A stretch of 41,080 nucleotides of DNA. Origin: a virus. The stretch lies in IMG/VR virus record IMGVR_UViG_3300025674_000104, positions 1 through 41,080 of that record; one strand, written 5' to 3'. Made by a program: the position numbers and the translations under genes. Shown here piece after piece: positions 11,601 through 39,928 of this stretch; positions within the stretch are counted from its first letter, which is position 1; every line of letters starts with the position of its first letter. The notes beneath the pieces are model-generated. The model saw only the letters and a list, made by a program, of their open reading frames with translations. It made no database searches and was not told the origin of the DNA.

Positions 11601-14600
11601 GTAGATAATGATAAGTTTAGATTGGCAAATGCTGGAATATCTGGAACTATTAGAACAAATTATATTAGAAAGGAGTATGTGAGATTTTTAACTACTGGAA
11701 CCGATTATCATATATTTAATTACCCAGAAATTAAAGTTGATATAAACGTATCTTATGCAAATACTACAGGTATTATTAGTGCTACTCCAATAGTTAGGGG
11801 TGAAATAGAAGATCTTTATATTTACGAAAATGGAAGTAATTATGGCACGGAAATATTAAATTATCATCAAAAACCAGATTTAACAATAAAAACTGGTAAG
11901 AACGCTGCGCTAAGGCCAATAATATCCAATGGCAGAATAATTGACGTTGAAATAGAATCTTCTGGCACCGAATATTATTCAACTCCAGATGTTATTATTT
12001 CTGGAGATGGTTTTGGTGCTCAAATAACTCTAGATATTAGTAATGGACAAGTAAGAAATGCAATCGTTACTAAAACAGGAATTGGATATTCTGATTCTAC
12101 AACTTCTATTGAGATAAAACCTTCCGGATCTAACTTTAAAGCAGATCTTTTAGTTAGAGATTTAACAATAAACACACAATACCGTTTTGGTGATGAATTC
12201 TTTAACACTAGGGGACCTGTAGGATTATCTTCAGATGAATTAGTTTATCAAATAGTAGGTTATAATGATTTTATTAGATCATCTTTTGATGATAATTTTG
12301 GAACGGAAACGTCTCCAGAACACTCCCCTATTATTGGTTGGGCATTTGATGGAAATCCAATATATGGTCCATTTGGATATTCAAATCCATCGGATTCAAC
12401 TTCAGTAAAATTAATTACTTCTGGATATTCATTGGCACCAGAATTGGTGTCAGATAGACCATCTTTATCAGTATTTCCTTCCGGAATTTTTGTAGAAGAC
12501 TATAGTTTTACTAATTCTGGCGATTTGGATGAATATAATGGTAGATTTTCGAAGACACCAGATTTTCCAAATGGAATATACGCATACTATGCAGGAATAC
12601 AAACAAGTTTATCTGTACCCGATACATATGAATCTATTTTTCCTTATTTTGTAGGAAATTATTTTAAATCAAAGTTTATACCAGAAATAATTGATTTAAA
12701 TCAAGATTTTGATTTCAATAACTCTAACTTATTAAGAAATACTTTTCCACATAGAATAGGGCAAAAATATTCAAAAAATGATTATGTTGATTTTGATTAC
12801 TCTGATAAAGTTTATTCATCTATAGTTGAAGGAACTACTTCTGGAAGTGTAGATAGTTTTGAAATTATTAATTCTGGTCAAGATTATAAAGTTGGTGATA
12901 GATTGTTGTTTAATAATGAAGGAACTTTTGGAGATGGAGTTAGTGCAGAAGTTTCAGAAATAGGTGGGAAAGAAATAACTAAAATAGAAACCAATATAAC
13001 TTCTTATACACAATCTATTGTAACTAAAGAAAGTAACAATTCACTAAAAATATATGTAAATCCTTATCACGAACTTCGTAATGGCGATTATGTCACTATT
13101 AGTGGTCTATCTACTTATATTGATGGAATTACGAATATACATCAAATTAGAGTCTCTACATATTCTTCATACTTATTGAAAAATATCCCAGCAGAGTCTG
13201 TTACTGGTGTAGTAACTGACATCTATATTTCAAATATACCTTCTCAAATTTCTTCAGGAAGTTCTATAGGAATAGGAACGGAAATACTTTCAGTTTTAAA
13301 TATTTTTAATGAAAATAAGATACTTCGTGTTAAGAGAGAAACTATAGGAGTATCCCATACAGAATCTAGTTTAGTTTCATTTTATCCAAATTCATTTATA
13401 ATAAATTTAGAATCAAATGATATTGATTCTAAAACTAATGAAAAAATATATTTTAATCCTCAAAAATCAATAGGATTAGGCACAGAAGTTGGAATCTCTA
13501 CTACAGTATTGTATCCTCTGGGTGAATTAGAAGTGCCTGTCTCTATTCCCACACAGAGCATATATTTACCAAATCATCCATTCAAAACAAATCAGATGGT
13601 TTTGATGGGAGGAAATTCTATAATTTCTGTGGCAAATTCATCAACTGTTCCTCCAGGATTTAATATCCTCAGTGGAGGAACGGAGTATGTTTATGTTATT
13701 AAAAAGTCAAAAGATTATATTGGTATAGTAACTAATGTTGGACTTACTACAAGTTCAAATGGGTTATTCTTTACGACTAATGGTGCAGATAATTATGAAT
13801 ATTATTTCCAACCATTATACAATCAGGTGACAGCAAATGTTGATAGGATTGAAACTACAGTTTCAATTTCAACAGAACACAATTTAAATATTGGAGATAT
13901 AATTTCCTTAAATGTTTTACCCAATAATCAAGTTGGAGTTGGAACTTCGACAAAAGTAAGATTAGAATACAACTCCAATTATAAAAAATTGATAATTAAT
14001 TCTGTTGGATTTACTTCATCATCAGTAAATATTTTAGATGATATAATTACTATAGATAATCATAGTTTTGAGACTGGTAGTAAAGTATTTTATAATTCTT
14101 TTGATCTAGTTTCTTCAGGATTAAGTACGGGAGAATATTACACATATCGTATAGATGATAATAGATTTAAGTTAGGGAGAACCTTATATGATGTCACTTC
14201 CAATCCACCATCTACAGTTAGTATTGCATCTAGTGGTGGATCTAATCAGTACATTGGATTAATTAATCCATCTTTGTCTGTTTTTTCAAATGATGATTTA
14301 AGTTTTGATGTAAGTGATTCTTCTCTAGTCAATAAAAAATTAAGATTTTTTTATGATAATGATTTTAAAAATGAATTTGTTTCTGTAGGATCAACTCAAC
14401 AATTCAATATAATTGGTGTAGGTACAATTGGAATAACTTCAACTGCCGAAGTTACTGTAAACTCTTATGGTGATATTGATTTTGATATTTTCTATGCATT
14501 AGAAGTTGAAGGAAAAATTTTAAATCCAGACACTGATGTTCAAAGTTATTCCAGAATATCTTATAAAAATAGTTTATATAATGGATCTTATAGAATCAGT

Positions 14601-17600
14601 GGATTGGGGCAAACTTCATTTTCAGTAAATCTTAAAAAGATACCTGAAAGAATATCATATGCTTCAAGTGAGGTTGATTCTTTTTCATATTCTACCAATT
14701 CTTTGACAGAATCTGGTGGAATAGTAAAAATAAAGAAAATTTTTGGTGGATCTGGATATAAAAAAATCCCAGAATTTACTGGAGTTGCTTCCTCTGAAGG
14801 ATTCGGATCAATTATAAGATTAGATTCAAATACAATAGGAAAAGTAATAGAATCTAGAATAGAAAATAATGGACATGTATATCCATCGGATAAGACTTTA
14901 TCTCCAAAAGGAAGTCTTCCATATACTTTAAATGTCAATAATAATCAAAGAGTTTCAAATGTTTCAGTTACTTATGGTGGTCAAAATTATTTTTCAGCAC
15001 CACAATTAGTTTTAGTTAATTCTGAAACTAGAGAAACTATTAATAATGGATCAATAACACCAGTAATGGGATCTGGATCTATAATAGGAATTGATATTAT
15101 TTCTCCACCTAAAGGATTGAGTATAGTAAAACATGAAGTTTATTCGGTAAACAACAGTAATGGAATTGGAATAAATTCAATATCTTCTTCAAGTTCTGGT
15201 ATAGTAACTTGTATTTTAAATACACCTATTATTGGATTTTCAACAGTAAATCCTCCATTTTCTGCTGGAGATAAAATATTTGTTGAGGGAATTGAAAATA
15301 TTAGTGGTAATGGATTTAATTCTGAAGATCATGGATATGTATTCTTTACAGTTTTAAATTACTATACAACAAATCCAGCAATTCTCGAATATGATATAAG
15401 TGAATTTACTTCTTCAGTTGGGATTGCAGAGACTAGTCAACCATTTGCAAATGTAATTAATAAAAAAGTTTACCCAACTTTCTCAGTTTCTCAGGAAAAT
15501 AGTCAATTCTTTAACAATGAGATTTTATATGCAAATTCTGGAGCAGGATACTATAAAACTAATTTAAAAGTAAAGGGATCAAAAAATAATTATATTAAAA
15601 TTAGTGGTGGTGACGATATTTTATCTAAAAATGATTTAATTAGAGGTGAAAAATCTGGATCTATAGCTAAAATTCAATCTGTATCTAAAAATGATATTGA
15701 ACATGAAGTTGATTCTTTATATTCAACAACAAATGGGTGGAAAAATGAAATAGGAATTTTGGATATTGATAATCAAGTTATACCTGATAATGATTATTAT
15801 CAAAATCTTTCATATTCTGTTAAGAGTCCCATACCATTTGACGAAATGATAGATCCTGTCAACAGAATGCTTCATACTGTAGGTTTGAAAAATTTTGCTG
15901 ACGTTGGCATTACTTCATCGGTTAAAGTAGGTGTTGGAAGTACATCAGTTTCATCTTTATTAGTCGATTTTGTTGAAGAAGTAAGAGTTGATACTATAAA
16001 CCAATATGATTTAGTTCAAGATTTTGAATCTTTTGGAAACAGAACTAAACTCATTAAATTTAACAATAAAAAACTTGCAGATTTCTTTAAATGTGATACG
16101 AATAGAGTTCTTAGTATTGATGATATTAGCGATAGATTCTCTAGTAAAACATTTTCTCAAGAATCTTATCTGAATTTAGTTCAATATCCAAGATATACTA
16201 ATTATTCTAGATTTTTAGTTCAAAGTATAGGTATTGGAACTAACGAATATCAATTAGATGATATTGTTGTATTGAATAATGATTTTAATTCTTATACAAT
16301 TAACAGAGGATTTTTAGTAAATGATCCGGATCAAAATTATGTCAATCAGTATGCGGAAGTTTCTGGAAATATTGATGAATTTTTAAACCTAACGTTAAGA
16401 TTTAGTCCAAAAGACTTTGAAAATACAAGTTATTTTGTAAAATCATATAGAAATTACTATAATACTTCTTTATCTGGAGTAGGAACTACATCAATTTCAT
16501 TTATATCACTAACTTCTAAATCTCAACAGGTTTCTTCTGGAATAACAACTGAAATCATAGGAATTGACACTTCTAATTGTAATGGATTTATATCTGAAGT
16601 ATTTGTTTATGATGAACAGGAAAATAATATTAACTTCTTTGAAATTGCCATAGATCATGATGGTGTAAATTCTTACATATCTGAATATTATTTTGATACT
16701 TCCGATTATGATGGATTATCATCTACTCCTATTGGTTCTTTCGGAACTTCGATTTCTGGAGGAGTTTTGAATTTATCATTCACAAACAATTCGGGCAATA
16801 ATGTAATAATTAAGTCAAAAGTTACTAACTTTGAAACTCCTTCTGTAGGACTTACAACATACAGATTTAAGTCTGTCGATCAACCAGATGGATCAGAAAG
16901 ATCTTGTCGTTTAGAAGCTAAGCACTCAGTTGTTTCATCTGCTTCTACTATAATTTCAGTAGATGCTGCAACAGTTACTTCGTTTAAATCTTTAATTAAG
17001 ATTAAAAACAATTCAAATACATCATTACATCAGGTTTTATTCTTAAATGCATTAACTGATACACATATTCTACCAAAATATTATATTTCAATAGGAAATA
17101 CCAGTGGAATTGGCACTTTTGGATCAGAATATAGTGGAACAGATGCAGTTCTTAAATTTTATCCAGATCCATCTTTTACTGGATCATTTGAAATTTCTTC
17201 ATACTCCGAAATATTATATACTGACTTAGATTTTGATAATGATTCTTTAGATCTAGATTATGGTACTATTGTTGAGACTATTAATAATGGAAGATACAAT
17301 TCAATTAATGGTATTGGTAATGATCAACTAGAATTTGATTTGGAATATGAAAGATCTCCAATTTTCCAGAAAGTATTTAATCCTTCTGTACCATCAATAT
17401 TAAATTTAAGTACGGGACAATTTACAATTAAAAATCATTTCTTTAGCCCAAATGAAGAGCTGATATACAAAGAAGGTTCTACATTTATTGGTGTCGGTGC
17501 ATCTCCTATTGGTATAGGAACTACTATATTCGGTGGAACGACATTCCGTGGTGATGTAATATCAGGATTTTCTACTATTACAGGAATAACTACAACTAGT

Positions 17601-20600
17601 GATACATTATTAAAAGTTGATCAACTTATTATTGGGGAAAATATTCCATCAGGAACAACTATTGTTAGTATAGGACAAACATATCAATACTTTATTGGTA
17701 ATGTTGTTAGTGGTGGTTCTACTATCATTACTGGAATTGCAAATACTAGTATCTTATCTGTAGGATCTGGAATCTTTTCTGGAAATGGCACTTCTCTGGG
17801 AATAATTCAATCAGTTGGAATTAATTCTATCACATCAAATATTTCAATATCTTCGGGAGTTGGTAGATTATATTATACTGATAAATTGGGAATAGGATTA
17901 TCACTGTCCAGTGTTTCTACAGGAACTACTTTTAGACAATCCTTTAGTTCTGGAATTTTAACTGATAGATGTCCATCAACTGTTTATGCTATTAAAATAG
18001 ATTCTGATAATTTCAAAATAACAGGAACTAAAGGTAGTGGAATTGGATTTACATTTACAACTTATGGTGAAGGTAATGCACATACATTGACGATGAGCAA
18101 GAGAAATGAAAAATCACTTATCTCAATAGATGGAATAGTTCAATATCCAATTTTATATTCTCCAGTAGAACATTTTACAGAATATTCTATTAATTCAACA
18201 GATACACATTTTAAATTGAGTGGAATATCTTCAGTAAATCCTGGAGATTTGTTGAAAATTGATGAAGAATATGTTGGAGTGGTCAACGTTGGATTTGGAA
18301 CTACCTCAGATGGACCTATAAGCGGAGTTGGAACTGAAACTATTGTAAACGTTACTAGGGGATTTGTAGGCACATCTGCAACGAGTCACTCTCCAGGTTC
18401 AAGTGCAAGAGTTTACAGAGGATCTTATAATATTGTCGGAAGTAAAATTTTCTTAACAGAACCTCCAAAAGGTACGGGGAATAATGACGGTAAAAATAAT
18501 TCCAATTTACCTCTCACCAAATCATCTTTTAGTGGAAGAGTATTTTTAAGAAATGATTATTCTACAAATATCATTTATGATGAATTCTCAGATTCATTTA
18601 ATGGAATTGGTAAAACATATACTGTAAAATATCAGGGGCAAGATGTTGATTATGTTGAACCTGGTAGTGGTATTCTGTTTATCAATCAAATATTCCAAAC
18701 ACCAACAACAGAAAATAACCAAGGAAATAATTACGAATTAGTAAGTATAGGTAATACTACTAATATAGTTTTTAGTGGAATTAATAATCCTGATGACAAT
18801 TTACCTTTAATATCTGCAGAAGATGTAAATCAAAATCAACTTCCTAGAGGAGGAATTATAATTTCTCTAGGATCAACTTCAGGACTTGGATTTGCTCCGT
18901 TAGTTGGTGCTTCTGTTACTGCAGTTGTCGTTGGTGGCGTTATTCAATCTGTCGGTCTTGGGACTACAGATATTCTAGGTTCAGGATATAATGGAATAGT
19001 TTCTATTGGTGTTACAGATTCTACAGGAAGTGGTGCAGTTATAAGTGCCTCTGTTGGTGCGGGAGGAACATTGTCATTCACTGTTGATGATGGTGGTTCG
19101 GGTTATAGTTCAAATGCAATTATTGAAATTCCCGAACCTTCTTATGAAAATCTTTCTGTTATAGGTGTTTCTAGATTAGGAATAGGATCTACATCTCAAA
19201 CTGGTATTGGTTTATCAATAACTGTTGATGTTGGTCCTGTCTCAACAACAGGAATAGGATCAACATTATTTGAAGTTAAAACATTCAAAATATCAAAATT
19301 AGGTTATGGATTTAAAAGAGGTGATGTATTCAAACCCGTTGGTTTAGTTACAGATCGTGGATTATCATCTATAATTTCAGATTTTGAACTTACAGTCCTT
19401 AATGTTTTTAATGACTCTTCTGCTTTATGGCAATTTGGAGAGTTAGATTATATTGATAATATTTCCTCATTGCAAGATGGAGTTAGAACTAGATTCCCTC
19501 TGTATAGAAACAATGAATTATTAAGTTTTGAAATAGACGAAGATGATCCAGATTCTAGATTAATTGATTTTAACACTTTATTAATTATTTTTATTAATGG
19601 AGTAATGCAAAATCCAAATACTTCTTATGTGTTTAATGGGGGAACATCTTTTACCTTTAGTCAACCACCAAGACCAGAAGATCAAGTTGACATTTTCTTC
19701 TATAGAGGAACAAGAGATGTTGATAGCTTTTTACAACCTGTAAATGAACTTATAAAAATTGGTGATGATGTACAAATAAAATCAAATTTTGAGCATCCAA
19801 AAACTATATCTCAAGAGAAAAGATTAATTTTTGATATTTTAGAATCCGATTTGATTGAAACAAACATATATTTTGGTGCTGGTATTGATAACTCCAATCC
19901 AAAACCAATAAGTATAATTCCACAAAAAATTGATAAAATTATTAATACAAATATTGTAAGTAAATCTAGGAATTCTCTTTCATCTTTAGTATTTCCAACT
20001 TCTAAAATTATAAAAGATGTATTAGTTGGAGATAGTGAAATATTTGTAGATGATGCAAGATCCTTTTTCTATGAAGAAAATGATCTCGGAACAACAATAA
20101 TATCATTCGGAGCAATAGTAGTTGACGGAGTAGATCAAATCTTCGCAGATATTGAATCTGCAGTATCTTTAAGTTCTTCAATTTCGCTAAGTATCATTGA
20201 TGGAGGACTTGGTTATACTCCAGGATCTACTATTTCACTATCAATTTCAAATCCGGTTAATATGGGCATTGGAATTGGTACTACAGCTCAGGCTACAGCA
20301 ACAGTTTCTGCCGCTGGGACAATAAATTCTATTAGTATTACAAATCCAGGATTTGGATATACTGTTCCCCCCAATGTCATTGCACCTTTACCAGAACCAA
20401 AGATTGAAAATATTAGAAATATAGAATTTGTTCAGGGTTTCTCCGGAATAATAACGGGAATAACAACCACATCTGGTATAGGTACTGATTTAGCATTAAA
20501 GTTTTATTTAAGTAAGGAATCTGGAACCTTTAATGGTTTGTTGAGCACTTATCCAATTTTAATTGTTGATACACAAGTCGGATATGGAGTTACTTCCATT

Positions 20601-20915
20601 GATACGGATGATAATACTGTTGTTGGTGTAGGAACAACTTTCTTAGATAATGTTTATTACATTCATAGTATTACTAGCAGTGGAACTAATGCGGAAATTG
20701 TTTCTAATATCAGATCGAACAGTAATGTAATTGGTATTTCAACCTCTGGAGAAAATCTTGGCAGATTTTCTTGGGGAAGAATATCGTTCTTCCAAAGAAC
20801 TTCTCCAAAAGAGTTTATTGTTTCTGGAAAAACAGTAACCTCAGGATTATCAACTTATCCACAAATTCAGAGAAGAAATTATGGTTTACGTGATACTGGA
20901 TCTCTTGCAAAATAG
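8670..20915 (+). CDS. 7: Giant baseplate wedge protein, gp7 homologue (4081 aa)
   Basis: It follows gp6 and precedes gp8 as gp7 does in T4. Residues 30-60 (NFSEFLKQYY, GGPSDLSENLDQYI) and 201-219 (YQSKGTEESFRILFNVLYG), then LVGQTLFG (257-264), resemble the C-terminal third of T4 gp7 as I remember it (FEAFCEAYIQYL, STKGIEASYKFLFKVLYN, LVGQTIY). T4 gp7 has about 1030 aa, so some 3,800 residues have been added after this domain. The added part is beta-rich and modular: an R-G-containing module (91-145), at least six copies of an H-x-F...G-D-x-V-x-Y...Y-Y-V-x-x-x-D-x-x-x-F-x-L module, many G-x-G-Y turns, a YHYH-like DGNPIYGPFGY segment near residue 1225, and an I-F-I-N-G-V-M-Q-N-P domain near 3650. 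It probably decorates the baseplate periphery and may bind host glycans. It contains hardly any Cys or predicted transmembrane segments. Confidence 0.85.
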   Translation: MLDKGFDVRVKVSEVIENQIPEFILTENENFSEFLKQYYISQEFQGGPSDLSENLDQYIKLDNLSADIISGTYTLTSDVFELDDEIFVSSTVGFPPKYGLLKIDDEIITYTGITTSSFTGCIRGFSGIDSYINDGSQKNLVFKQTEISSHESGSEVKNLSALFLQEFFKKVKSYYTPGLEDTNFVSSLNVGNFIKESKSLYQSKGTEESFRILFNVLYGVDPKIIDLEEYLIKPSSADYVRRKVLFGRLVSGDPFKLVGQTLFGYNGTASAPISEVEIINKDGDYLYKILLFEGYDDKSLIDGEFDITPSTRVIGEVLENSSTITVDSTIGFPESGTLVSGDNTISYLDKSINQFFGCSGITSKIENTQRIISNQYAYSFENGDENNIVYFEVCGVISNTKLNENFSLIEEKDPVTIISLGDYVTNPDNKSFKQFLFNSWIYNTSARYEILSSNSNTSHITKETIDKSSLKVGDSVEILLRNTNTVIANAVVKNISGSDILLSNFVNNSSYVGLSTINTDIRRIQKYASSSTIPFKYENILSNIQNTYNENDEYIYVATNSLPDYTIGQNLINQSVPSGNSTYVSNNSITFSSSSLPFITGDRVIYSCSNEPISGLENGKSYFIKVSGNIVKLYLSRSFIYTDNYVSISPIDESGSHTLTLSEQFSKKLTPSKSLRKFPLIINQNNGEQEETVPGRTVGTLINGVDIANYKGIDKVYYGPIKSKVIYNKGENYDVVNPPLIEVSASVGTTCLVQPVIVGSVKSVLLNQKDAPIKDIKSITVSGGNGNGAVLSPVIEERYREVEFNAKTGLSISNEAIIFSERHNFYDGQQIVYNSNGNDPIGIGSFGGSNTDQSKNLVNGAIYFAKIVNPTSINIYDNLNNYTNGINTVGFTTINNFGIHKFRTLDFERVLSDVKVISEGNGYTNRKLIVKPIGVSTEYSYITFNDHGLSDGDLVTYSNNGNPISGLSTESQYYVLKVDNDKFRLANAGISGTIRTNYIRKEYVRFLTTGTDYHIFNYPEIKVDINVSYANTTGIISATPIVRGEIEDLYIYENGSNYGTEILNYHQKPDLTIKTGKNAALRPIISNGRIIDVEIESSGTEYYSTPDVIISGDGFGAQITLDISNGQVRNAIVTKTGIGYSDSTTSIEIKPSGSNFKADLLVRDLTINTQYRFGDEFFNTRGPVGLSSDELVYQIVGYNDFIRSSFDDNFGTETSPEHSPIIGWAFDGNPIYGPFGYSNPSDSTSVKLITSGYSLAPELVSDRPSLSVFPSGIFVEDYSFTNSGDLDEYNGRFSKTPDFPNGIYAYYAGIQTSLSVPDTYESIFPYFVGNYFKSKFIPEIIDLNQDFDFNNSNLLRNTFPHRIGQKYSKNDYVDFDYSDKVYSSIVEGTTSGSVDSFEIINSGQDYKVGDRLLFNNEGTFGDGVSAEVSEIGGKEITKIETNITSYTQSIVTKESNNSLKIYVNPYHELRNGDYVTISGLSTYIDGITNIHQIRVSTYSSYLLKNIPAESVTGVVTDIYISNIPSQISSGSSIGIGTEILSVLNIFNENKILRVKRETIGVSHTESSLVSFYPNSFIINLESNDIDSKTNEKIYFNPQKSIGLGTEVGISTTVLYPLGELEVPVSIPTQSIYLPNHPFKTNQMVLMGGNSIISVANSSTVPPGFNILSGGTEYVYVIKKSKDYIGIVTNVGLTTSSNGLFFTTNGADNYEYYFQPLYNQVTANVDRIETTVSISTEHNLNIGDIISLNVLPNNQVGVGTSTKVRLEYNSNYKKLIINSVGFTSSSVNILDDIITIDNHSFETGSKVFYNSFDLVSSGLSTGEYYTYRIDDNRFKLGRTLYDVTSNPPSTVSIASSGGSNQYIGLINPSLSVFSNDDLSFDVSDSSLVNKKLRFFYDNDFKNEFVSVGSTQQFNIIGVGTIGITSTAEVTVNSYGDIDFDIFYALEVEGKILNPDTDVQSYSRISYKNSLYNGSYRISGLGQTSFSVNLKKIPERISYASSEVDSFSYSTNSLTESGGIVKIKKIFGGSGYKKIPEFTGVASSEGFGSIIRLDSNTIGKVIESRIENNGHVYPSDKTLSPKGSLPYTLNVNNNQRVSNVSVTYGGQNYFSAPQLVLVNSETRETINNGSITPVMGSGSIIGIDIISPPKGLSIVKHEVYSVNNSNGIGINSISSSSSGIVTCILNTPIIGFSTVNPPFSAGDKIFVEGIENISGNGFNSEDHGYVFFTVLNYYTTNPAILEYDISEFTSSVGIAETSQPFANVINKKVYPTFSVSQENSQFFNNEILYANSGAGYYKTNLKVKGSKNNYIKISGGDDILSKNDLIRGEKSGSIAKIQSVSKNDIEHEVDSLYSTTNGWKNEIGILDIDNQVIPDNDYYQNLSYSVKSPIPFDEMIDPVNRMLHTVGLKNFADVGITSSVKVGVGSTSVSSLLVDFVEEVRVDTINQYDLVQDFESFGNRTKLIKFNNKKLADFFKCDTNRVLSIDDISDRFSSKTFSQESYLNLVQYPRYTNYSRFLVQSIGIGTNEYQLDDIVVLNNDFNSYTINRGFLVNDPDQNYVNQYAEVSGNIDEFLNLTLRFSPKDFENTSYFVKSYRNYYNTSLSGVGTTSISFISLTSKSQQVSSGITTEIIGIDTSNCNGFISEVFVYDEQENNINFFEIAIDHDGVNSYISEYYFDTSDYDGLSSTPIGSFGTSISGGVLNLSFTNNSGNNVIIKSKVTNFETPSVGLTTYRFKSVDQPDGSERSCRLEAKHSVVSSASTIISVDAATVTSFKSLIKIKNNSNTSLHQVLFLNALTDTHILPKYYISIGNTSGIGTFGSEYSGTDAVLKFYPDPSFTGSFEISSYSEILYTDLDFDNDSLDLDYGTIVETINNGRYNSINGIGNDQLEFDLEYERSPIFQKVFNPSVPSILNLSTGQFTIKNHFFSPNEELIYKEGSTFIGVGASPIGIGTTIFGGTTFRGDVISGFSTITGITTTSDTLLKVDQLIIGENIPSGTTIVSIGQTYQYFIGNVVSGGSTIITGIANTSILSVGSGIFSGNGTSLGIIQSVGINSITSNISISSGVGRLYYTDKLGIGLSLSSVSTGTTFRQSFSSGILTDRCPSTVYAIKIDSDNFKITGTKGSGIGFTFTTYGEGNAHTLTMSKRNEKSLISIDGIVQYPILYSPVEHFTEYSINSTDTHFKLSGISSVNPGDLLKIDEEYVGVVNVGFGTTSDGPISGVGTETIVNVTRGFVGTSATSHSPGSSARVYRGSYNIVGSKIFLTEPPKGTGNNDGKNNSNLPLTKSSFSGRVFLRNDYSTNIIYDEFSDSFNGIGKTYTVKYQGQDVDYVEPGSGILFINQIFQTPTTENNQGNNYELVSIGNTTNIVFSGINNPDDNLPLISAEDVNQNQLPRGGIIISLGSTSGLGFAPLVGASVTAVVVGGVIQSVGLGTTDILGSGYNGIVSIGVTDSTGSGAVISASVGAGGTLSFTVDDGGSGYSSNAIIEIPEPSYENLSVIGVSRLGIGSTSQTGIGLSITVDVGPVSTTGIGSTLFEVKTFKISKLGYGFKRGDVFKPVGLVTDRGLSSIISDFELTVLNVFNDSSALWQFGELDYIDNISSLQDGVRTRFPLYRNNELLSFEIDEDDPDSRLIDFNTLLIIFINGVMQNPNTSYVFNGGTSFTFSQPPRPEDQVDIFFYRGTRDVDSFLQPVNELIKIGDDVQIKSNFEHPKTISQEKRLIFDILESDLIETNIYFGAGIDNSNPKPISIIPQKIDKIINTNIVSKSRNSLSSLVFPTSKIIKDVLVGDSEIFVDDARSFFYEENDLGTTIISFGAIVVDGVDQIFADIESAVSLSSSISLSIIDGGLGYTPGSTISLSISNPVNMGIGIGTTAQATATVSAAGTINSISITNPGFGYTVPPNVIAPLPEPKIENIRNIEFVQGFSGIITGITTTSGIGTDLALKFYLSKESGTFNGLLSTYPILIVDTQVGYGVTSIDTDDNTVVGVGTTFLDNVYYIHSITSSGTNAEIVSNIRSNSNVIGISTSGENLGRFSWGRISFFQRTSPKEFIVSGKTVTSGLSTYPQIQRRNYGLRDTGSLAK

Positions 20916-22521: not shown

Positions 22522-25500
22522 ATGCCACAAAAAACAAATTTAAATATAAATCCATATTATGACGACTTTGATGCCGATAAAAATTTTTATAAAGTATTGT
22601 TTAAACCTGGATTCCCTGTCCAATCCAGGGAATTAACATCTTTACAGTCAATATTACAAAATCAAATAGAGTCTTTTGGAAGATATATTTTTAAAGAAGG
22701 TTCTGTTGTTATTCCAGGATCAATAAATTATGATGATCAGTTTTATGCCGTCAAATTAAAGTCATCACACTTAGGTGTAGACATTTCTTTATATATTGAT
22801 CAATTATTGGGAAAAAATATACGTGGCCAATCATCTCAAGTTAGTGCAACGGTTAGATACATTTTATCATCTACAGACTCAGAGCAAGGATATACTACAC
22901 TATACATAAAATATTTAACAAGTGATAGTAATTTTGAAGTTAAACCATTTTTAGATAATGAAGTTTTAGTACTAGAAGACTCTATTACTTATGGCAATAC
23001 TACTATTGCTTCCGGAGAAACATTTGCATCTACTATAGATTTTGAATCTACTGCAATTGGATCTGCCATATCAATAAGTGAAGGAATATATTTTTTAAGA
23101 GGTTCATTTGTTAAGGTTAATTCAGATACATTGATTCTAGATCAGTATTCTAATTCACCTTCATATCGAGTTGGTCTATTAGTCACTGAAGAAATTATAA
23201 CAGCAAAAAATGATAATTCATTATATGATAATGCAAGAGGATTTTCCAATTACGCATCTCCAGGAGCAGATAGATTTAAGATTTCGACAGTATTGAGCAA
23301 AAAATCTCTTACTGATTATGATGATAGAAATTTTATTGAACTTTTTAGAACGATAGATGGAACTACAAAATTAATACAAGATAAAAATGAATATTCCGAA
23401 CTTTTAAATTATCTAGCAAAAAGAACATATGATGAATCTGGAGACTATTCTGTAATCCCATTTAATATTGAAATACAGAATTCGTTAAATGATCTAGTAT
23501 CATCTAATGGTCTATATTTACCTTCACAAACCACATCGTCAGGAAATTCTCCTAGTGAAGATTTAATGTGCCTTAAGATTTCTCCAGGTAGGGCATATGT
23601 CAGAGGATTTGATATTGATAAACCACAATTAACTATAATTGATTTCGAAAAAACAAGAAAAACAGAATCTATTGATATTACTTCAGTACCATTTGAGATG
23701 GGAAATTTGATAAAGGTAGATAATGTTTCTGGTGTTCCTGCACTTGGTCTCAATAATAACTATTATGTAAATTTACAAAGCGAAAGAAAAAGTGGAGATG
23801 TTGGATCAGGTTCAACAATAGGACAAGCAAGAGTATATTCATTAGTTCCACCAAATAGTGGTTATGGGAATACATCCTCCCAATGGGATCTTTACTTATA
23901 CGATATTCAAACATATGTTGAACTTACTTTAAATACTTCACTATCATCTTTACAATGTCCAATATCATCTTACATTGAAGGTAGAAGTAGTGGTGCTAGT
24001 GGATATACGGTATATTCTCCAAATTCTGATATAATTACTTTGACACAAACTTCCGGCAATTTTATTGTTGGAGAAGAAATTTATATAAATGGAACACTTC
24101 AAAATTCAAGAAGTGTAAAATCTATAAGAACTTATAATACTGAAGACATTAAATCAATATATCAAGACACTAGTTCAATTGTAGGATTTTCAACTTCCTT
24201 TGTTGCTGATGCAGTTTTAGATAGAAAAATTGCAAATAACTTTAGAATTACTGATAATATTTTTATAGACAGTTTAGGAATTGCAACCTGTCCTGGAAAA
24301 ACTTTTGTAGGAATTAAAAGTGATTCTATAATTAGATACCAAAGACCAGGATTAACTGTTGAAACATATAATAAGGTCCTTTCTATATCCTCAGATGGGC
24401 AGACAATGACCTTAGCAGGAATTCCTACAGTTTTTGGAGTTTGTGATGGTGCAATTCCTTCCAGCAATGAGACTGTAACTTTTTCACTTGGAGTTCCATC
24501 AATAAAAAATGAGGAGAATTCATTTTTATATTCCAAATTAAACCATAAAAATATTTCGAACGTTGATATTTCCAACTCAAGTCTAATAATAACCAGACAA
24601 ATAACAGGAAAAACAACGGATAGTAATGGAGATTTGACTGTAACAACAGCGGATGTTGGAATATCCAGTGTGTTTTTCCAACCATTTGATGAAGAAAGAT
24701 ATTCTATTTTTTATGATGATGGATCTATTGAAAATCTAACGGAAGATCAATTTGAACTATCTGGAAATTCTTCTTCAATTACATTTAGAGGATTAAGTCC
24801 ATCTAGGTCAAATATTACGGTAAATACAACTCTTAAAAAATTTGGCATATCTAATAAAAATAAATTTTTACTTAGAAGTCAAAAGATATTAATTGATAAA
24901 ACTAGGAGTGGAGTTTCTACTGAATATGGATTAACTAAGAATGACTATTATGGTCTTAGAATAGAAGATAGAGAAATTTCTTTAAATATTCCAGAAGTTA
25001 CTAATATAGTAGCAGTTTATGAATCCTTAGATCAAAATTCTCCTTCTTTAGATAAATTGACATTTGTTTCATCATTAAATTTGAATACTAATGCAATTTT
25101 GGGTGAGCGTATTAGGGGAAATTCTAGTTCTGCTGTAGCTCAAATAGTAACACTACAATCGGCATCAGAAATAGAAATAGTTTATTTAAATGAAAATAGA
25201 TTTACAGTTGGTGAAAATATAACATTCGAAGAGTCTAATATCAGTGGATATTTACAGCAGATAGATGTAGGTCAATACTTAAATAGGACTTTAAGTTATT
25301 CATTAGATGTTGGAGAAAGAGAGCAGTACTATGATTATTCGAGGATAGTCAGATCCATATCTGAAGAACCTTCCAGAAAACTATTAGTTATTTTCGATCA
25401 ATATACAGTTCCATCAAATGATAGGGGAGATTTATATACAGTTAATAGTTATAATACTTCTTTGGAAAATATACCATCAATTAACTCGGAAACTAGATGT

Positions 25501-28500
25501 TCAGATGTTTTAGATTTTAGACCAAGGGTTTCATCTTTTACTAGTACTACTAGTTCTCCATTCTCTTTTGAGAGTAGAAACTTTGAATCTTCAGGAGTTA
25601 ATCCTCCCCTGTTGGTTTCTCCAAATGAATCACTTGAGTTAGGGTATTCTTTTTATCTACCAAGAATTGATAAACTTGTTTTAAACAAAGATGGTACATT
25701 TAAATTAATAACTGGAGATGCTTCTTTAAATCCTAAAGAACCTTCTAATGTTGATAGTGCTATGCATATTGCAACTATTACAATACCTGCTTATGTATTT
25801 GATGTTAGAGATATAACAATTTCTCTAGCAGATAATAGAAGATTTACTATGAGGGATATTGGAAGACTTGAAGATAGAGTTGAAAATATAGAAAGAGTAA
25901 CTTCATTATCTCTTTTAGAACTAGATACTAAAACTTTACAGATTCAAGACTCTGATGGTCTTTCTAGATTTAAATCTGGTTTTTTTGTAGATGATTTTAA
26001 AGATTTATCTTTATCTGATATTGGAAATGCCGATTTGAAATGTACTGTAATAGCAGAAACACAAGAATTATCTACAAATATAGATCAATTTTCCCTTAAA
26101 GCTCAATTATCTCCAGCAAGTAATTTAAATACAAGTACATTAGATTTTTCTTCGGATTTTGAACTTTTAGATCCAAATGTTAAAAAAACGGGAGATTTAG
26201 TTACATTAAACTATGAAGAAGTTGAATGGACTAATTTAACTCAACCTTTAGCAACTAGAGTTGAAAATGTTAATCCGTTCAATGTGGTTGAATTAACTGG
26301 AAATATTACTCTTTCTCCAGCATCAGATACTTGGACTAGAATTGTCGTAATAAATCGCGGAAGTACAAGATTTACTTGGGGAGGATCAAATACAACATTT
26401 ACCGAAGAGGTTGTTTTTAGTAGAGAACCAGAACGTTTTATGAGATCTAGAAACGTTCATTTTTCTGCAACTGGAATACAACCATTTACTCGCCATTATC
26501 AGTTTTTAGATGGAAACAGCGGTGTTGATATAGTTCCCAAACTTTTAGAAATATCTATGTCTTCAGGTCAATTTGAAGTTGGGGAAATCGTAGATGGATT
26601 TTTTGAATCTGAAAGAATTATTACATTTAGAGTAGCATCCCAAAATCATAAAACAGGAACATATAATGCATCTATTGGATCATTAAATGCTAAATTCTTT
26701 ACTTCTAATCCATATAATAATTCTCTCTCACTTTCTGGATATAGTCCCTCTTCAACAGTTTTAAATGTAGATACATTATCTCTTTCAGATGAAACTGATG
26801 GAAGATTCTCTGGATATACTAGAGTTGGAATGACATTGGTGGGAAGAACCTCTGGTGCCGAAGCAACACTAACAAACAATAGACTTATAACAGATGCTAA
26901 TGGTTTTGTTGCCGGATGCTTCTTTATAAAAGATCCAAACGCAACTCCAGAACCTTTAGTCAAATTTGAAACAGGGACAAAAGTATTCAGACTTTCTTCT
27001 AGTGATATAGATTTGAGTCTTTTACCTGCAGGATATATAGTTTCTTCAGCTCAAGCTTCGTATAGTTCTTCCGGAATTTTGGAAACAAGAGAATTGGTAC
27101 AAGTAACTGTAAGAAGGCCGCCTCCACCACCGCCACCGCCGCCGCGACCTGCACCAAGAGATCCGTTGGCACAAACATTTACGGTTGATGATGAAGGTGG
27201 ATTTTTATCCTCTATAGATCTTTGGTTCCAACAAAAAGATTTGAATCAGGAATTAATTGTTGAGTTAAGAACAGTTGAGTTAGGAACTCCAACAAATAGA
27301 TTACTTCAGGATTATACTAGAGTAATCTTATCTCCCGATGATGTTGTAGTTTCTCAAAATGCTAATGAAAACAGTTATACTAGAGTAACTTTCCCCAGCC
27401 CGGTTTACTTAGAACCTAATACAGAATATGCTATTGTTCTACTATCTCCACAATCAATAAATTATTATGCTTGGATTGCTAGAATGGGTGAAAGAACAAT
27501 AGAAACATCTAATCTTCCTGATGTTGAATCTGTAATATATTCAAGTCAGTATACTGGTGGAAGTTTGTTTAAATCACAAAACGGAACAGTTTGGACTGCA
27601 AACCAATATGAAGATTTGAAGTTTAGATGTAATAAGTGTAGTTTTACTTCTTCAACTGGAACAGCATATTTCTATAATCCATCTTTACAAGAATCTAAAA
27701 TAACAGAAGATTTTAATGTTTATAGTACTGTTCCAGATCCTATTACGACTTTCCCAAGAAAATTAATTGTTGGAATTAATACTACACAATCACTCAATGA
27801 CATTTTAGTCATTGGTACAAAAGTTGGTGCAGGAAATACTACAAAGGGAACAATTGAAAATATTGGTGGACCAATTTCTGGAATTGTCACAACTAATGTC
27901 GGAACGGGTTATTCTCAAGGAACATTTAGTAATGTTTCACTTTATTCTGAAACTGGATATGGAACTACAGTTACAGCAACTGTTGTAATTAATTCCAGTG
28001 GTCAAGTTGGATCCGTTTCTATTGCAAATAGTGGTACTGGATATGTTGTTGGGGATGTTTTAGGAATTAAGACTTCTGATGTAACTAAAGGAAGTGGTGC
28101 TAGAATTACAGTCTCTGAAATTTATGGAATAGACAAGTTATATTTAACTGACGTTTCTGGAGAAACTTTTGCCCCTAATACATCAACAGAACTGATTTAT
28201 TACTCTGATCCCAATACAAGAGTTTCAATATCTGGCACTTATGTACAAAGTAGTCAAGTTTTAAATCAATTATATGAAGGAAATGTGGTACAAGTTTATG
28301 ATTATAGTCATGGAATGCATTCTTCAAATAATATTGTAACATTAGCTAATATTTCTCCAACTACTATTGGAGTTAAAATTCAAAACGAAGTAAACAGCGA
28401 TTCAACATCAATTTCAGTAGAAAATATTGGAATATTTACTTCTTTCGAGGGAAGACCAGTTGGAGCATCAAATACTGGATATGCTATTATTAATAATGAA

Positions 28501-29622
28501 ATAATTGGTTATACAAATGCAAATACTTCAACTAATGATCTTGAAGATATATCGAGAGGAATAGATCAAACTTCATCAAGAACACACCAATCTGGAGACA
28601 TTATAAGAAAATATGAATTGAATGGCATTTCTTTAAGGAGAATAAACACTACTCATGATATGTCTTCTAATTCCAATTTTATCAATAACCTGAAAGAAAT
28701 TGATACTTATTATTTGGAAATAGACAGATCGGGTAGAGCAAATGGTGATTATCAATTATCATTCGTAGACAAGAGAACAGTGGGTGGAGAAAACTGTGTA
28801 TTTTCACAAAATATACAATATAATTCAATTAATCCTATTTTTAATATTTTAACACCAGAACTGACTAGTGTTTCATCTCAAATTCGTACAGTTTCATCAA
28901 CAAGTGCATCTGGAAGTGAAATTTCATTTACAGATCTTGGATTTGAACCAATTCAATTAAACTCTGAAAATTCTTTAAATTCTCCAAGAATGGTTGCATC
29001 TAGAATTAATGAGATTAACAGATTAACTTCATTGCCTAGAAATAAATCTTTAACTCTCGGAATAACTTTGAATAACAATGGAAATACCAATTTATCTCCA
29101 GTAATTGATATTGCAAATTCTGCAATATTTAATTTTAAAAGAAATAGAATTAATCGTCCTATTTCTGACTATACATTAAATTCCGGAAGTAATTCCAACA
29201 TCAATGATCCACATGCTTCAATTTATATAAGTAAAAAAATAGACTTAAAAACTCCATCAACTTCATTGAAGGTTTTAATTTCTGCTTATAGAGATTCTTC
29301 TGCAGATTTTAGAATATTCTATAAGTTATTTAAATCTGACAGTAGTGAAATTACCCAGTCTTACATAGCATTCCCAGGATATGATAATCTTATAGATACT
29401 AATGGTGATGGATTTGGAGATAGAGTAATTGATTCTTCCAAAAATAGTGGCAGATCGGATTCCTTTGTAAAATCTAGTGCTGACAATGAATTTTTAGATT
29501 ATCAATTTACTGCAGATAATCTAGATCAGTTTTCAGGATTTATCATTAAAATAGTGATGAATGGAACTAATGAAGCAAAATCTCCTCGCTTTAAAGATCT
29601 AAGAGTAATTGCATTAGCTTAA
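22522..29622 (+). CDS. Large DUF4815-type baseplate / tail-fibre attachment protein (2366 aa)
   Basis: The N-terminus (NINPYYDDFDADKNFYKVLFKPGFPVQSRELTSLQSILQNQIESFGRYIFKEGSVV) is the signature of the DUF4815 family of phage structural proteins. DVLDFRPRV near residue 997 also fits this family. Nine consecutive Pro (1533-1541) form a likely rigid hinge, followed by RDPLAQTFTVDDEGGFLSSIDLWFQ, the beginning of a separate beta-rich domain. Two G-T-G-Y repeats and one R-G...H-x-x-G module lie in the C-terminal third, and it ends PRFKDLRVIALA. By gene order it takes the place of T4 gp9/gp10, which connect the baseplate to long tail fibres, but I see no direct similarity to either. It is well suited as the fibre-anchoring, host-facing baseplate part. 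Confidence 0.8.
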   Translation: MPQKTNLNINPYYDDFDADKNFYKVLFKPGFPVQSRELTSLQSILQNQIESFGRYIFKEGSVVIPGSINYDDQFYAVKLKSSHLGVDISLYIDQLLGKNIRGQSSQVSATVRYILSSTDSEQGYTTLYIKYLTSDSNFEVKPFLDNEVLVLEDSITYGNTTIASGETFASTIDFESTAIGSAISISEGIYFLRGSFVKVNSDTLILDQYSNSPSYRVGLLVTEEIITAKNDNSLYDNARGFSNYASPGADRFKISTVLSKKSLTDYDDRNFIELFRTIDGTTKLIQDKNEYSELLNYLAKRTYDESGDYSVIPFNIEIQNSLNDLVSSNGLYLPSQTTSSGNSPSEDLMCLKISPGRAYVRGFDIDKPQLTIIDFEKTRKTESIDITSVPFEMGNLIKVDNVSGVPALGLNNNYYVNLQSERKSGDVGSGSTIGQARVYSLVPPNSGYGNTSSQWDLYLYDIQTYVELTLNTSLSSLQCPISSYIEGRSSGASGYTVYSPNSDIITLTQTSGNFIVGEEIYINGTLQNSRSVKSIRTYNTEDIKSIYQDTSSIVGFSTSFVADAVLDRKIANNFRITDNIFIDSLGIATCPGKTFVGIKSDSIIRYQRPGLTVETYNKVLSISSDGQTMTLAGIPTVFGVCDGAIPSSNETVTFSLGVPSIKNEENSFLYSKLNHKNISNVDISNSSLIITRQITGKTTDSNGDLTVTTADVGISSVFFQPFDEERYSIFYDDGSIENLTEDQFELSGNSSSITFRGLSPSRSNITVNTTLKKFGISNKNKFLLRSQKILIDKTRSGVSTEYGLTKNDYYGLRIEDREISLNIPEVTNIVAVYESLDQNSPSLDKLTFVSSLNLNTNAILGERIRGNSSSAVAQIVTLQSASEIEIVYLNENRFTVGENITFEESNISGYLQQIDVGQYLNRTLSYSLDVGEREQYYDYSRIVRSISEEPSRKLLVIFDQYTVPSNDRGDLYTVNSYNTSLENIPSINSETRCSDVLDFRPRVSSFTSTTSSPFSFESRNFESSGVNPPLLVSPNESLELGYSFYLPRIDKLVLNKDGTFKLITGDASLNPKEPSNVDSAMHIATITIPAYVFDVRDITISLADNRRFTMRDIGRLEDRVENIERVTSLSLLELDTKTLQIQDSDGLSRFKSGFFVDDFKDLSLSDIGNADLKCTVIAETQELSTNIDQFSLKAQLSPASNLNTSTLDFSSDFELLDPNVKKTGDLVTLNYEEVEWTNLTQPLATRVENVNPFNVVELTGNITLSPASDTWTRIVVINRGSTRFTWGGSNTTFTEEVVFSREPERFMRSRNVHFSATGIQPFTRHYQFLDGNSGVDIVPKLLEISMSSGQFEVGEIVDGFFESERIITFRVASQNHKTGTYNASIGSLNAKFFTSNPYNNSLSLSGYSPSSTVLNVDTLSLSDETDGRFSGYTRVGMTLVGRTSGAEATLTNNRLITDANGFVAGCFFIKDPNATPEPLVKFETGTKVFRLSSSDIDLSLLPAGYIVSSAQASYSSSGILETRELVQVTVRRPPPPPPPPPRPAPRDPLAQTFTVDDEGGFLSSIDLWFQQKDLNQELIVELRTVELGTPTNRLLQDYTRVILSPDDVVVSQNANENSYTRVTFPSPVYLEPNTEYAIVLLSPQSINYYAWIARMGERTIETSNLPDVESVIYSSQYTGGSLFKSQNGTVWTANQYEDLKFRCNKCSFTSSTGTAYFYNPSLQESKITEDFNVYSTVPDPITTFPRKLIVGINTTQSLNDILVIGTKVGAGNTTKGTIENIGGPISGIVTTNVGTGYSQGTFSNVSLYSETGYGTTVTATVVINSSGQVGSVSIANSGTGYVVGDVLGIKTSDVTKGSGARITVSEIYGIDKLYLTDVSGETFAPNTSTELIYYSDPNTRVSISGTYVQSSQVLNQLYEGNVVQVYDYSHGMHSSNNIVTLANISPTTIGVKIQNEVNSDSTSISVENIGIFTSFEGRPVGASNTGYAIINNEIIGYTNANTSTNDLEDISRGIDQTSSRTHQSGDIIRKYELNGISLRRINTTHDMSSNSNFINNLKEIDTYYLEIDRSGRANGDYQLSFVDKRTVGGENCVFSQNIQYNSINPIFNILTPELTSVSSQIRTVSSTSASGSEISFTDLGFEPIQLNSENSLNSPRMVASRINEINRLTSLPRNKSLTLGITLNNNGNTNLSPVIDIANSAIFNFKRNRINRPISDYTLNSGSNSNINDPHASIYISKKIDLKTPSTSLKVLISAYRDSSADFRIFYKLFKSDSSEITQSYIAFPGYDNLIDTNGDGFGDRVIDSSKNSGRSDSFVKSSADNEFLDYQFTADNLDQFSGFIIKIVMNGTNEAKSPRFKDLRVIALA
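27118..27144 (+). other. Nine-proline hinge in the DUF4815 protein
   Basis: Nine Pro codons in a row, mostly CCG/CCA, make a small GC-rich island inside a strongly A+T-rich gene. It separates the upstream domains from the DPLAQTF domain and is flanked by RR and RPAPR, typical of an exposed rigid linker. Confidence 0.8.
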
Positions 29623-37243: not shown

Positions 37244-39928
37244 ATGAGTGATAATGTTTATTTGGGCAATCCGAACCTGAAGAAGGCAAATACGCCTATT
37301 CAGTTTACAGAAGATCAAGTTATTGAGTTTTTAAGGTGTAAGGAAGACCCCGTTTATTTTGCTAGAAACTACATCAAGATTGTTTCTCTTGATCATGGTC
37401 TTGTGCCTTTTAAAATGTATCCTTTCCAAGAAAGGTTAATTCAAAACTTCCACGATAATCGTTTTAATATTTGTAAGATGCCCCGCCAGACGGGTAAAGC
37501 TTTATCATTAGATACTCCAATTCCAACTCCAAATGGTTGGACAACTATCGGAGATCTTAAAGTTGGTGATAATATTTTATCCCCAACAGGAGATTCTGTT
37601 TCAGTTGTAATGAAAACTGAAACGATGTACAATCATGATTGTTATAAAATATATTTTGATAATGGTGAAGAAATAATTGCAGATGCAGATCATTTATGGG
37701 AAGTTAATAGTTCATATTGGAGAACTGGAAATAAAGTTATAACTTCTAAAGATATATTTGATCAATATCAATCAAAAATAAAAAATAAAAGGGGAAAAGG
37801 ATTTCAAGGATCTTTATTTGTAGATAAATCAAGACCAATTAATTTTGTCAAAAATACATTAAATATTGATCCATATCTTCTTGGTGTTTGGTTGGGAGAT
37901 GGATATTCTTCTGATGGAAGAATAATTGCCCATAAAGATGATTATAATTTTTATAAAAGTGAATTTGATGTAGAGCATGAAAGAGAATGTGATAATTGCA
38001 TTAGATTTAAAATTAGAAATTTATATTCCAAATTAAAAAACTATAATTTAATTAAAAATAAGCATATCCCATTAAAATATCTTCGTTCTTCTTATGAAGA
38101 TAGATTGGAACTGCTTCGAGGTTTAATGGATACTGATGGATCCGTTAGAAAAGATAGTAGATCATTTGAATTTTATCAAAAAAATTATGATATGGTATTG
38201 CAGGTTGTTGAGTTACTTTCTTCTCTTGGCATAAAATCAAAGATAAGGCATAAAGAAATTAAGGGCAATTATTATCATACAGTATCTTTTTCAACTAAAG
38301 AAAGAGTATTTAATCTTCCAAGAAAAATTAAAAATATAAATTCAGCAAAGTCAGTTAGAAAGCAAGAAAGTAGACACTATATTCATAAAATAGAAAAAGT
38401 TGATAGTGTACCAGTTGCATGTATACAAGTTGATAGTGAAGATCATTTATTTTTATGCGGTAGAACTTTTATTCCTACACATAATTCCACAACTGTTGTT
38501 TCATATCTTTTACATTATGCGGTATTCAATGATAATGTTAATATTGCGATTCTAGCAAACAAAGCATCAACTGCTAGAGACCTTCTTGGAAGATTACAAC
38601 TTGCTTATGAAAATCTGCCAAAGTGGATGCAGCAAGGTATTGTATCCTGGAACAAAGGTAGTTTAGAATTAGAGAATGGGTCCAAGATTTCCTCTAACTC
38701 CACTTCATCATCCGCAGTTCGAGGTGGGTCATATAATGTGATTTTCTTGGACGAATTTGCGTTTATTCCAAATCATATTGCTGACGACTTCTTTGCATCA
38801 GTATATCCAACTATTTCTTCTGGACAAAGCACAAAAGTTATTATAGTTTCAACGCCACGCGGTATGAATCACTTCTACCGTATGTGGCATGATGCTGAAA
38901 GAGGTAAGAATGAATATGTGCCGACTGATGTTCATTGGTCTGAAGTTCCAGGTAGAGATGATGCTTGGAAAGAGCAAACAATTGCTAATACTTCAGAGCA
39001 GCAGTTTAATGTGGAATTTAACTGTCAATTTTTAGGTTCCACAAATACTCTCATTAATCCAGCAAAACTTAGAAATCTTGTATATGAAGATCCAATCAGG
39101 AGAAATGCTGGATTAGATATATATGAAAATCCCAAAGAACAAAATAACTACTTAATAACGGTTGATGTTGCTCGTGGTCTTGGAAATGATTACTCTGCAT
39201 TTATTGTTTTTGATATTACAGAGTTTCCATATAAGGTAGTAGCAAAGTATAGGAATAATGAAATTAAACCGATGCTATTTCCAAGCATTATTCACGAAGT
39301 AGCAAAGGGATATAATGATGCGTGGTTGTTGGTTGAAGTTAATGATATTGGGGACCAAGTAGCAAATATTTTACACTTTGACTTAGAATATGATAATGTT
39401 CTTATGTGTGCGATGAGAGGTCGTGCTGGTCAAATTGTTGGATCTGGATTTAGCGGTAAAAAATCACAGTTGGGTGTGAGAATGACTGCTGCTGTGAAAA
39501 AGTTAGGATGCTCCAATTTAAAGACTTTATTAGAAGATGATAAATTACTCACTGTAGATTATGACATTATTTCAGAACTAACCACATTTGCACAGAGACA
39601 CAACTCCTTTGAGGCAGAAGAGGGTTGTAATGATGATTTGGCAATGTGTCTTGTAATCTTCTCTTGGTTGGTTGCACAGGACTATTTCAAAGAAATGACG
39701 GATAATGATGTCCGTAAAAGAATTTATGAAGAGCAGAAAAATCAGATAGAGCAGGATATGGCACCATTCGGATTTATTTCTGATGGGCTAGAAGATATGG
39801 AAGTATTTGTGGAAAAAGAAACAGGTGATAGATGGATGTCAGCATCTTCACAGGACCAAAATAATCCCTTAGAAGTTTGGAATTTGGATGAATATGGTGA
39901 TAGATCTTATATGTGGGATTACAGGTAG
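37244..39928 (+). CDS. 17: Terminase large subunit gp17, interrupted by an intein (894-aa precursor)
   Basis: gp17 is the packaging motor: an N-terminal ATPase and a C-terminal RNase H-like nuclease that cuts concatemers. The Walker A sequence PRQTGK-STTVV is split between Lys85 and Ser415 by an in-frame 329-aa intein. After removal, 565 aa remain, normal for this family (T4 gp17, 610 aa). In the rest one sees Walker B VIFLDE (499-504) followed by F-A-F, the coupling motif STP (536-538), and the nuclease segments TVDVARGLGNDYSAF (639-653, Asp641) and LVEVND (696-701). Until spliced, the P-loop is broken, so ATPase activity depends on intein excision. It sits after three genes separating it from gp16 and before gp18, from which a late promoter divides it. 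Confidence 0.95.
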   Translation: MSDNVYLGNPNLKKANTPIQFTEDQVIEFLRCKEDPVYFARNYIKIVSLDHGLVPFKMYPFQERLIQNFHDNRFNICKMPRQTGKALSLDTPIPTPNGWTTIGDLKVGDNILSPTGDSVSVVMKTETMYNHDCYKIYFDNGEEIIADADHLWEVNSSYWRTGNKVITSKDIFDQYQSKIKNKRGKGFQGSLFVDKSRPINFVKNTLNIDPYLLGVWLGDGYSSDGRIIAHKDDYNFYKSEFDVEHERECDNCIRFKIRNLYSKLKNYNLIKNKHIPLKYLRSSYEDRLELLRGLMDTDGSVRKDSRSFEFYQKNYDMVLQVVELLSSLGIKSKIRHKEIKGNYYHTVSFSTKERVFNLPRKIKNINSAKSVRKQESRHYIHKIEKVDSVPVACIQVDSEDHLFLCGRTFIPTHNSTTVVSYLLHYAVFNDNVNIAILANKASTARDLLGRLQLAYENLPKWMQQGIVSWNKGSLELENGSKISSNSTSSSAVRGGSYNVIFLDEFAFIPNHIADDFFASVYPTISSGQSTKVIIVSTPRGMNHFYRMWHDAERGKNEYVPTDVHWSEVPGRDDAWKEQTIANTSEQQFNVEFNCQFLGSTNTLINPAKLRNLVYEDPIRRNAGLDIYENPKEQNNYLITVDVARGLGNDYSAFIVFDITEFPYKVVAKYRNNEIKPMLFPSIIHEVAKGYNDAWLLVEVNDIGDQVANILHFDLEYDNVLMCAMRGRAGQIVGSGFSGKKSQLGVRMTAAVKKLGCSNLKTLLEDDKLLTVDYDIISELTTFAQRHNSFEAEEGCNDDLAMCLVIFSWLVAQDYFKEMTDNDVRKRIYEEQKNQIEQDMAPFGFISDGLEDMEVFVEKETGDRWMSASSQDQNNPLEVWNLDEYGDRSYMWDYR
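37499..38485 (+). mobile_element. Class 3-type intein with LAGLIDADG endonuclease in gp17 (329 aa)
   Basis: It begins with Ala86 (ALSLDTPIPTPNGWTTIGDLKVGD, block A) and ends P-T-H-N before Ser415. No Cys or Ser stands at the first intein position. Instead the Trp-Cys-Thr triad of class 3 inteins is present: Trp152 two residues after the block B His150 (ADADHLW), Cys393 in block F (ACIQVDSEDHLFL), and Thr412 before His413-Asn414. In that class the block F Cys starts splicing, then Ser+1 and Asn complete it. Two LAGLIDADG motifs, YLLGVWLGDG (211-220) and LRGLMDTDGS (291-300), show a homing endonuclease with acidic residues intact. It is probably active and mobile, targeting gp17 alleles without intein at the Walker A codons. 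Confidence 0.93.

Follow-up and report, generated by a model that had tools for sequence, protein, structure and literature searches.

The terminase large subunit gene (gp17) of a T4-like cyanophage very probably carries a mobile class 3 intein with a LAGLIDADG homing endonuclease, lodged at the GK/S step of the ATPase P-loop. The window analysed here is a stretch of 41080 bases, in which the insertion occupies positions 37499-38485; a preliminary description had placed it there, and the open frame and junctions show these limits to be exact to the base. The kind is not new, related inteins being present at the same site in Synechococcus phage B23, Klebsiella jumbo phages and RB49-like phages, and P-loop inteins of phage terminases (TerL) having been published. 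With approximately 60 carriers and 74 empty alleles, this one gene of T4-like cyanophages provides a well sampled set for studying natural intein homing, and a case in which to test whether P-loop inteins regulate their host proteins.

The insertion and its gene

The gp17 precursor (37244-39928, plus strand, as are all parts of gp17 and its intein given below) encodes 894 amino acids in one open frame, stop codon included, and is assigned to phrog_2 and phrog_36964. The Pfam domains Terminase_6N and Terminase_6C lie downstream of the insertion, which itself contains LAGLIDADG_3, at residues 287-347. The N-extein (37244-37498) comprises gp17 residues 1-85 and ends with the Walker A letters RQTGK, while the C-extein (38486-39925) comprises residues 415-894 and begins with the Walker A Ser at position +1. 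Between them lies an in-frame, stop-free insertion of 329 amino acids with Ala first and Asn last. At the upstream junction PRQTGK is followed by ALSLDTPIPTPNGW, the intein beginning ALSLDTP, and at the downstream junction FIPTHN is followed by STTVV. The insertion thus separates Walker A Lys85 from Ser415 (MPRQTGK/A...THN/STT), and the P-loop is split between Lys and Ser just as had been proposed.

Assignment to class 3

Class 3 inteins are defined by Trp at B:12, Cys at F:4 and Thr at G:5 (the WCT triad), with Ser or Thr at +1 and no requirement at residue 1 (PMC5222942). The present intein has the WCT triplet and Ser at +1, and with Ala as its first residue it dispenses with a nucleophile at position 1. 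Trp67 (codon 37697-37699, block B:12) stands two residues after His65; Cys308 (38420-38422, block F:4) is the predicted initiating nucleophile; and Thr327-His328-Asn329 (38477-38485, block G) supply the triad Thr, the penultimate His and the terminal Asn. In precursor numbering these are Trp152, Cys393, Thr412 and His413-Asn414, with Ser415 at +1, as the preliminary description had numbered them.

When phmmer was run against PDB sequences, class 3 DnaB inteins came first (E 5e-27 to 2e-24), led by Mycobacterium smegmatis 6bs8 (E 4.8e-27) and followed by M. chimaera 6rix and 6riy and then by the related gp41-1. The alignments with the DnaB inteins cover both ends and keep the triad in register, and a profile built from 32 relatives again ranked 6bs8, 6rix and 6riy first. 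Each residue of the triad (Trp67, Cys308, Thr327) falls opposite its counterpart in class 3 inteins of solved structure, which bears out the class 3 features, WCT triad and Ser +1 of the earlier reading. That reading had also named an alignment check, on whether Cys393 and Trp152 might fall outside blocks F and B; they match Cys118 and Trp67 of M. smegmatis DnaBi1 (PMC6195587). Its view of class 3 as a minor class did not hold, 1701 class 3 inteins having been counted in one database survey (PMC7891396).

The splicing blocks align without any shift to those of M. smegmatis DnaBi1 and M. chimaera DnaB1 (6bs8, 6rix), to the point that Cys48, Asp62, His65 and Trp67 bear identical numbers (PMC6195587, PMC7664689). 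A catalytic Cys in block F and a THN end are shared, and DnaBi1 is likewise sited in a P-loop; however, both are mini-inteins without an endonuclease, in a bacterial helicase. The cyanophage-like gp41-1 intein (PDB 6qaz) has a related splicing domain and the triad Thr, but belongs to class 1 (Cys1), and grafting the WCT residues onto it did not yield a class 3 intein (PMC7664689).

Among 55 distinct relatives in the alignment His65, Cys308, Thr327, His328 and Asn329 are invariant. Trp67 is kept in 54 of the 55 and in all 47 gp17-type rows (47/47), the single exception coming from a distant Vibrio phage. This is the terL intein of Vibrio phage VCO139 (L072:3001-4014), which has Asn at the Trp position while keeping the Cys and Thr; it may be a deviant or belong to another class.

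From these residues we infer class 3 splicing chemistry, which would start from the Cys at F:4 and pass through a block F branched intermediate. After translation, Cys308 would attack the bond between Lys85 and Ala1, and the N-extein would then be transferred to Ser +1. Asn329 would cyclise and the two halves of gp17 would join as GKSTT, restoring the ATPase, each step being modelled on residues whose roles are known in homologues. Given the insertion point, unspliced gp17 would be expected to lack ATPase activity; loss of ATPase before splicing has been shown for another P-loop intein, that of Pyrococcus RadA (according to PMC6195587).

Endonuclease and predicted structure

Blocks B and F of the insertion flank an endonuclease fold, and both LAGLIDADG motifs have their acidic residues. 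Motif 1 (LLGVWLGDG, 37877-37903) supplies Asp134, which is Asp in 55/55 rows, and motif 2 (LLRGLMDTDG, 38111-38140) supplies Asp213, Asp in 54/55, so that the motifs are intact as first described. An AlphaFold2 model of the intein has a mean pLDDT of 87.6 and a pTM of 0.86. In Foldseek searches the full-length model matched the complete intein-endonucleases PI-SceI (E 1.9e-17) and TliVMA (E 1.3e-15), and the splicing domain matched class 3 DnaB inteins with TM-scores of 0.80-0.84, normalised by target length. Over pairs of sequences, the endonuclease has a median dN/dS of 0.13, the N-terminal splicing part 0.14 and the C-terminal part 0.03; the low value for the endonuclease indicates that it is maintained by purifying selection.

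Empty alleles, distribution and mobility

Scanning IMG/VR with the intein returned 62 loci, and every locus in which the junction is present has the insertion at the same site, between GK and S or T; a scan with the C-extein returned 80 loci. A comparison with gp17 of related phages had been suggested in search of intein-free alleles, and these are abundant: 74 IMG/VR loci lack the intein at exactly this junction, where 0 bases separate the N-extein from the C-extein, and gp17 of the isolates S-SRM01 and P-SSM2 is uninterrupted there. Carriers and non-carriers are interleaved on a C-extein tree, a quick build in which many forks are weak and some rows are long. This tree requires at least 10 changes of state, five of which well supported branches make unavoidable; 23 changes result when carrier labels are shuffled. 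Carriers are clustered, yet there have been several gains or losses.

When the window is compared with one other carrier (L009), silent sites differ by 0.25 in the intein but by 0.58 in the extein, a sign that the intein passed from one lineage to another after the gene had diverged; most pairs, however, are close to saturation at silent sites, and the comparison depends on few of them. The sequences thus combine precise empty alleles and an interleaved distribution with an intein less diverged than its extein in this pair, the pattern of a homing intein. No co-conversion tract was visible: in bins of 60 bp and 12 bp, flank identity of carriers relative to non-carriers does not rise towards the junction. 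The fourth residue past the junction (38495-38497) is Val in 46/59 carriers and Cys in 18/25 close intein-free genes (Fisher p 1e-7, kinship not corrected), a difference that we leave uninterpreted because shared ancestry can yield it.

Judged from its sequence, this is a homing intein that is active now or was until recently, homing being deduced from the scattered distribution, the purifying selection on the endonuclease and the incongruence of intein and extein. In a mixed infection, gp17 genes without the intein would be cut by the endonuclease and would then receive a copy of the intein. The choice of site is best accounted for if the P-loop offers a conserved target from which imprecise loss would be lethal, and any gating of packaging would then be a by-product or a secondary use.

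Could the intein be a redox switch?

An alternative account of its persistence is that the intein is retained because it serves as a regulatory switch: oxidation would link Cys48 to Cys308 in a disulfide and hold back gp17 activity until conditions in the cell turn reducing, and packaging would be delayed until the redox state of the photosynthetic host suits it. We regard this as unlikely. Its attraction derives from DnaBi1, the closest solved relative and also P-loop-sited: a Cys48-Cys118 disulfide, found by mass spectrometry, inhibits this intein (PMC6195587). The codon for the equivalent Cys48 lies at 37640-37642; the residue, redox-trap partner of the catalytic Cys in DnaBi1 (PMC6195587), is Cys in 51/55 relatives, and Cys320 is also found in 48/55. 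However, splicing was abolished in every Cys48 mutant of DnaBi1 that was tried (PMC6195587), so that a need for splicing alone explains the conservation of Cys48, which is hence not proof of regulation. Furthermore, many close-relative gp17 genes have no intein, and the switch must be dispensable, while the relatives in Klebsiella jumbo phages have Met48.

The more particular notion of a redox-timed safety catch on the cyanophage packaging motor, with the Cys48-Cys308 pair holding gp17 unspliced under oxidising conditions and releasing it when the cell is reducing, is by analogy with DnaBi1 conceivable but distinctly improbable. The two cysteines do give the redox idea a concrete residue pair, although conservation for splicing explains the pair equally well. 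The coupling of packaging to redox or temperature proposed in the preliminary description is not borne out by these data, and for control by temperature nothing speaks. If splicing were redox-controlled, the redox state of a photosynthetic host would be linked to phage DNA packaging.

Cys48 of DnaBi1 has been termed non-conserved (PMC6195587), in contrast to its retention in 51/55 of the phage class 3 inteins aligned here, where the exceptions include the Klebsiella jumbo phages. Cys320 (38456-38458) lies twelve residues past the catalytic Cys and is present in 45/47 gp17-type rows, with Ala in its place in several other class 3 relatives.

Other explanations of the insertion

It is very improbable that the intein belongs to class 1 or class 2 and has its WCT letters by coincidence, or that it is degenerate and has lost the ability to splice. 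Ala at residue 1 would by itself also fit class 2, and two relatives (L024, L026) have Ser there. Class 1, however, needs Cys, Ser or Thr at this position, which is Ala in the window, A, S, P or G across the 55-row set and Met in one further relative (L135); the +1 residue is Ser here and S or T in gp17 relatives. A variable residue 1 beside an invariant Cys308 is the pattern expected if Cys308, and not residue 1, is catalytic. The conserved WCT residues and the strong matches to class 3 sequences in the PDB point the same way, and on these grounds together the class 1 and class 2 readings were rejected. As for degeneration, if the insertion stayed in place the P-loop of an essential ATPase would be disrupted, whereas the frames are open and dN/dS is low. 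That the class 3 homing intein is an assembly artefact or chimera, conceivable in that the source is a metagenomic virus record, has practically no chance of being correct. It is refuted by an identical intein in a separate contig (L001), by dozens of independent samples with relatives at this junction, and by the isolate genome of Synechococcus phage B23, which has one there too.

Related inteins in other phages

A close counterpart in an isolate is the intein of the terminase gp267 of Synechococcus phage B23 (MN695335.1), annotated in its record as terminase only. It is 67% identical and shares the gene, the site between GK and S or T, the length class, the WCT triad and the LAGLIDADG endonuclease; it differs in having Thr at +1 and a more diverged extein. 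Within the open-access papers searched, we found no published intein report for phage B23 or for gp17 of another T4-like cyanophage. A tblastn search with the intein found matches in 796 phage records, including B23 and gp17 of RB49-like Escherichia phages.

The large terminases of Klebsiella phages RaK2 and K64-1 and gp17 of Escherichia phages kvi and ECD7 (RB49-like) contain inteins that have the class 3 residues and LAGLIDADG in common with this one, those of RaK2 and kvi at the same GK/T site of a T4-type gp17. They are 37-40% identical to it, and RaK2 has Met48. The LAGLIDADG-bearing terminase intein of RaK2 and K64-1 has been mentioned previously (PMC5259590). A more distant gp17 intein (L135:395-1381) is 44% identical and occupies the same site, with Met first and Ser at +1.

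Mycobacteriophage TerL proteins have inteins in the ATPase domain, including one at the 'classic' P-loop site between Lys and Thr (TerL1-a), and class 3 members with conserved WCT are among them; splicing and endonuclease assays have been published (PMC5050341). These inteins differ in belonging to other terminase families and other phages.

The host virus and its gene order

The gp17 C-extein is 91.5% identical to that of Synechococcus phage S-SRM01 and 84% identical to that of P-SSM2, which upholds the initial identification as a cyanophage gp17; by this gene, the nearest isolates are Synechococcus and Prochlorococcus myoviruses. Upstream of gp17 lie genes for head closure, a sheath stabiliser and the terminase small subunit (phrog_445), and a tail sheath gene (phrog_23) is just downstream, which is the T4-like order. 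On sequence similarity of this kind the virus is assigned to the T4-like cyanophages. Two very long open frames, at 8670-20915 (4081 amino acids) and 22522-29622 (2366 amino acids), lie in the structural cluster and adjoin baseplate wedge genes. In the GenBank record of S-SRM01 (L157, MW015081.1) the genes for the terminase large subunit and the tail sheath apparently bear each other's names.
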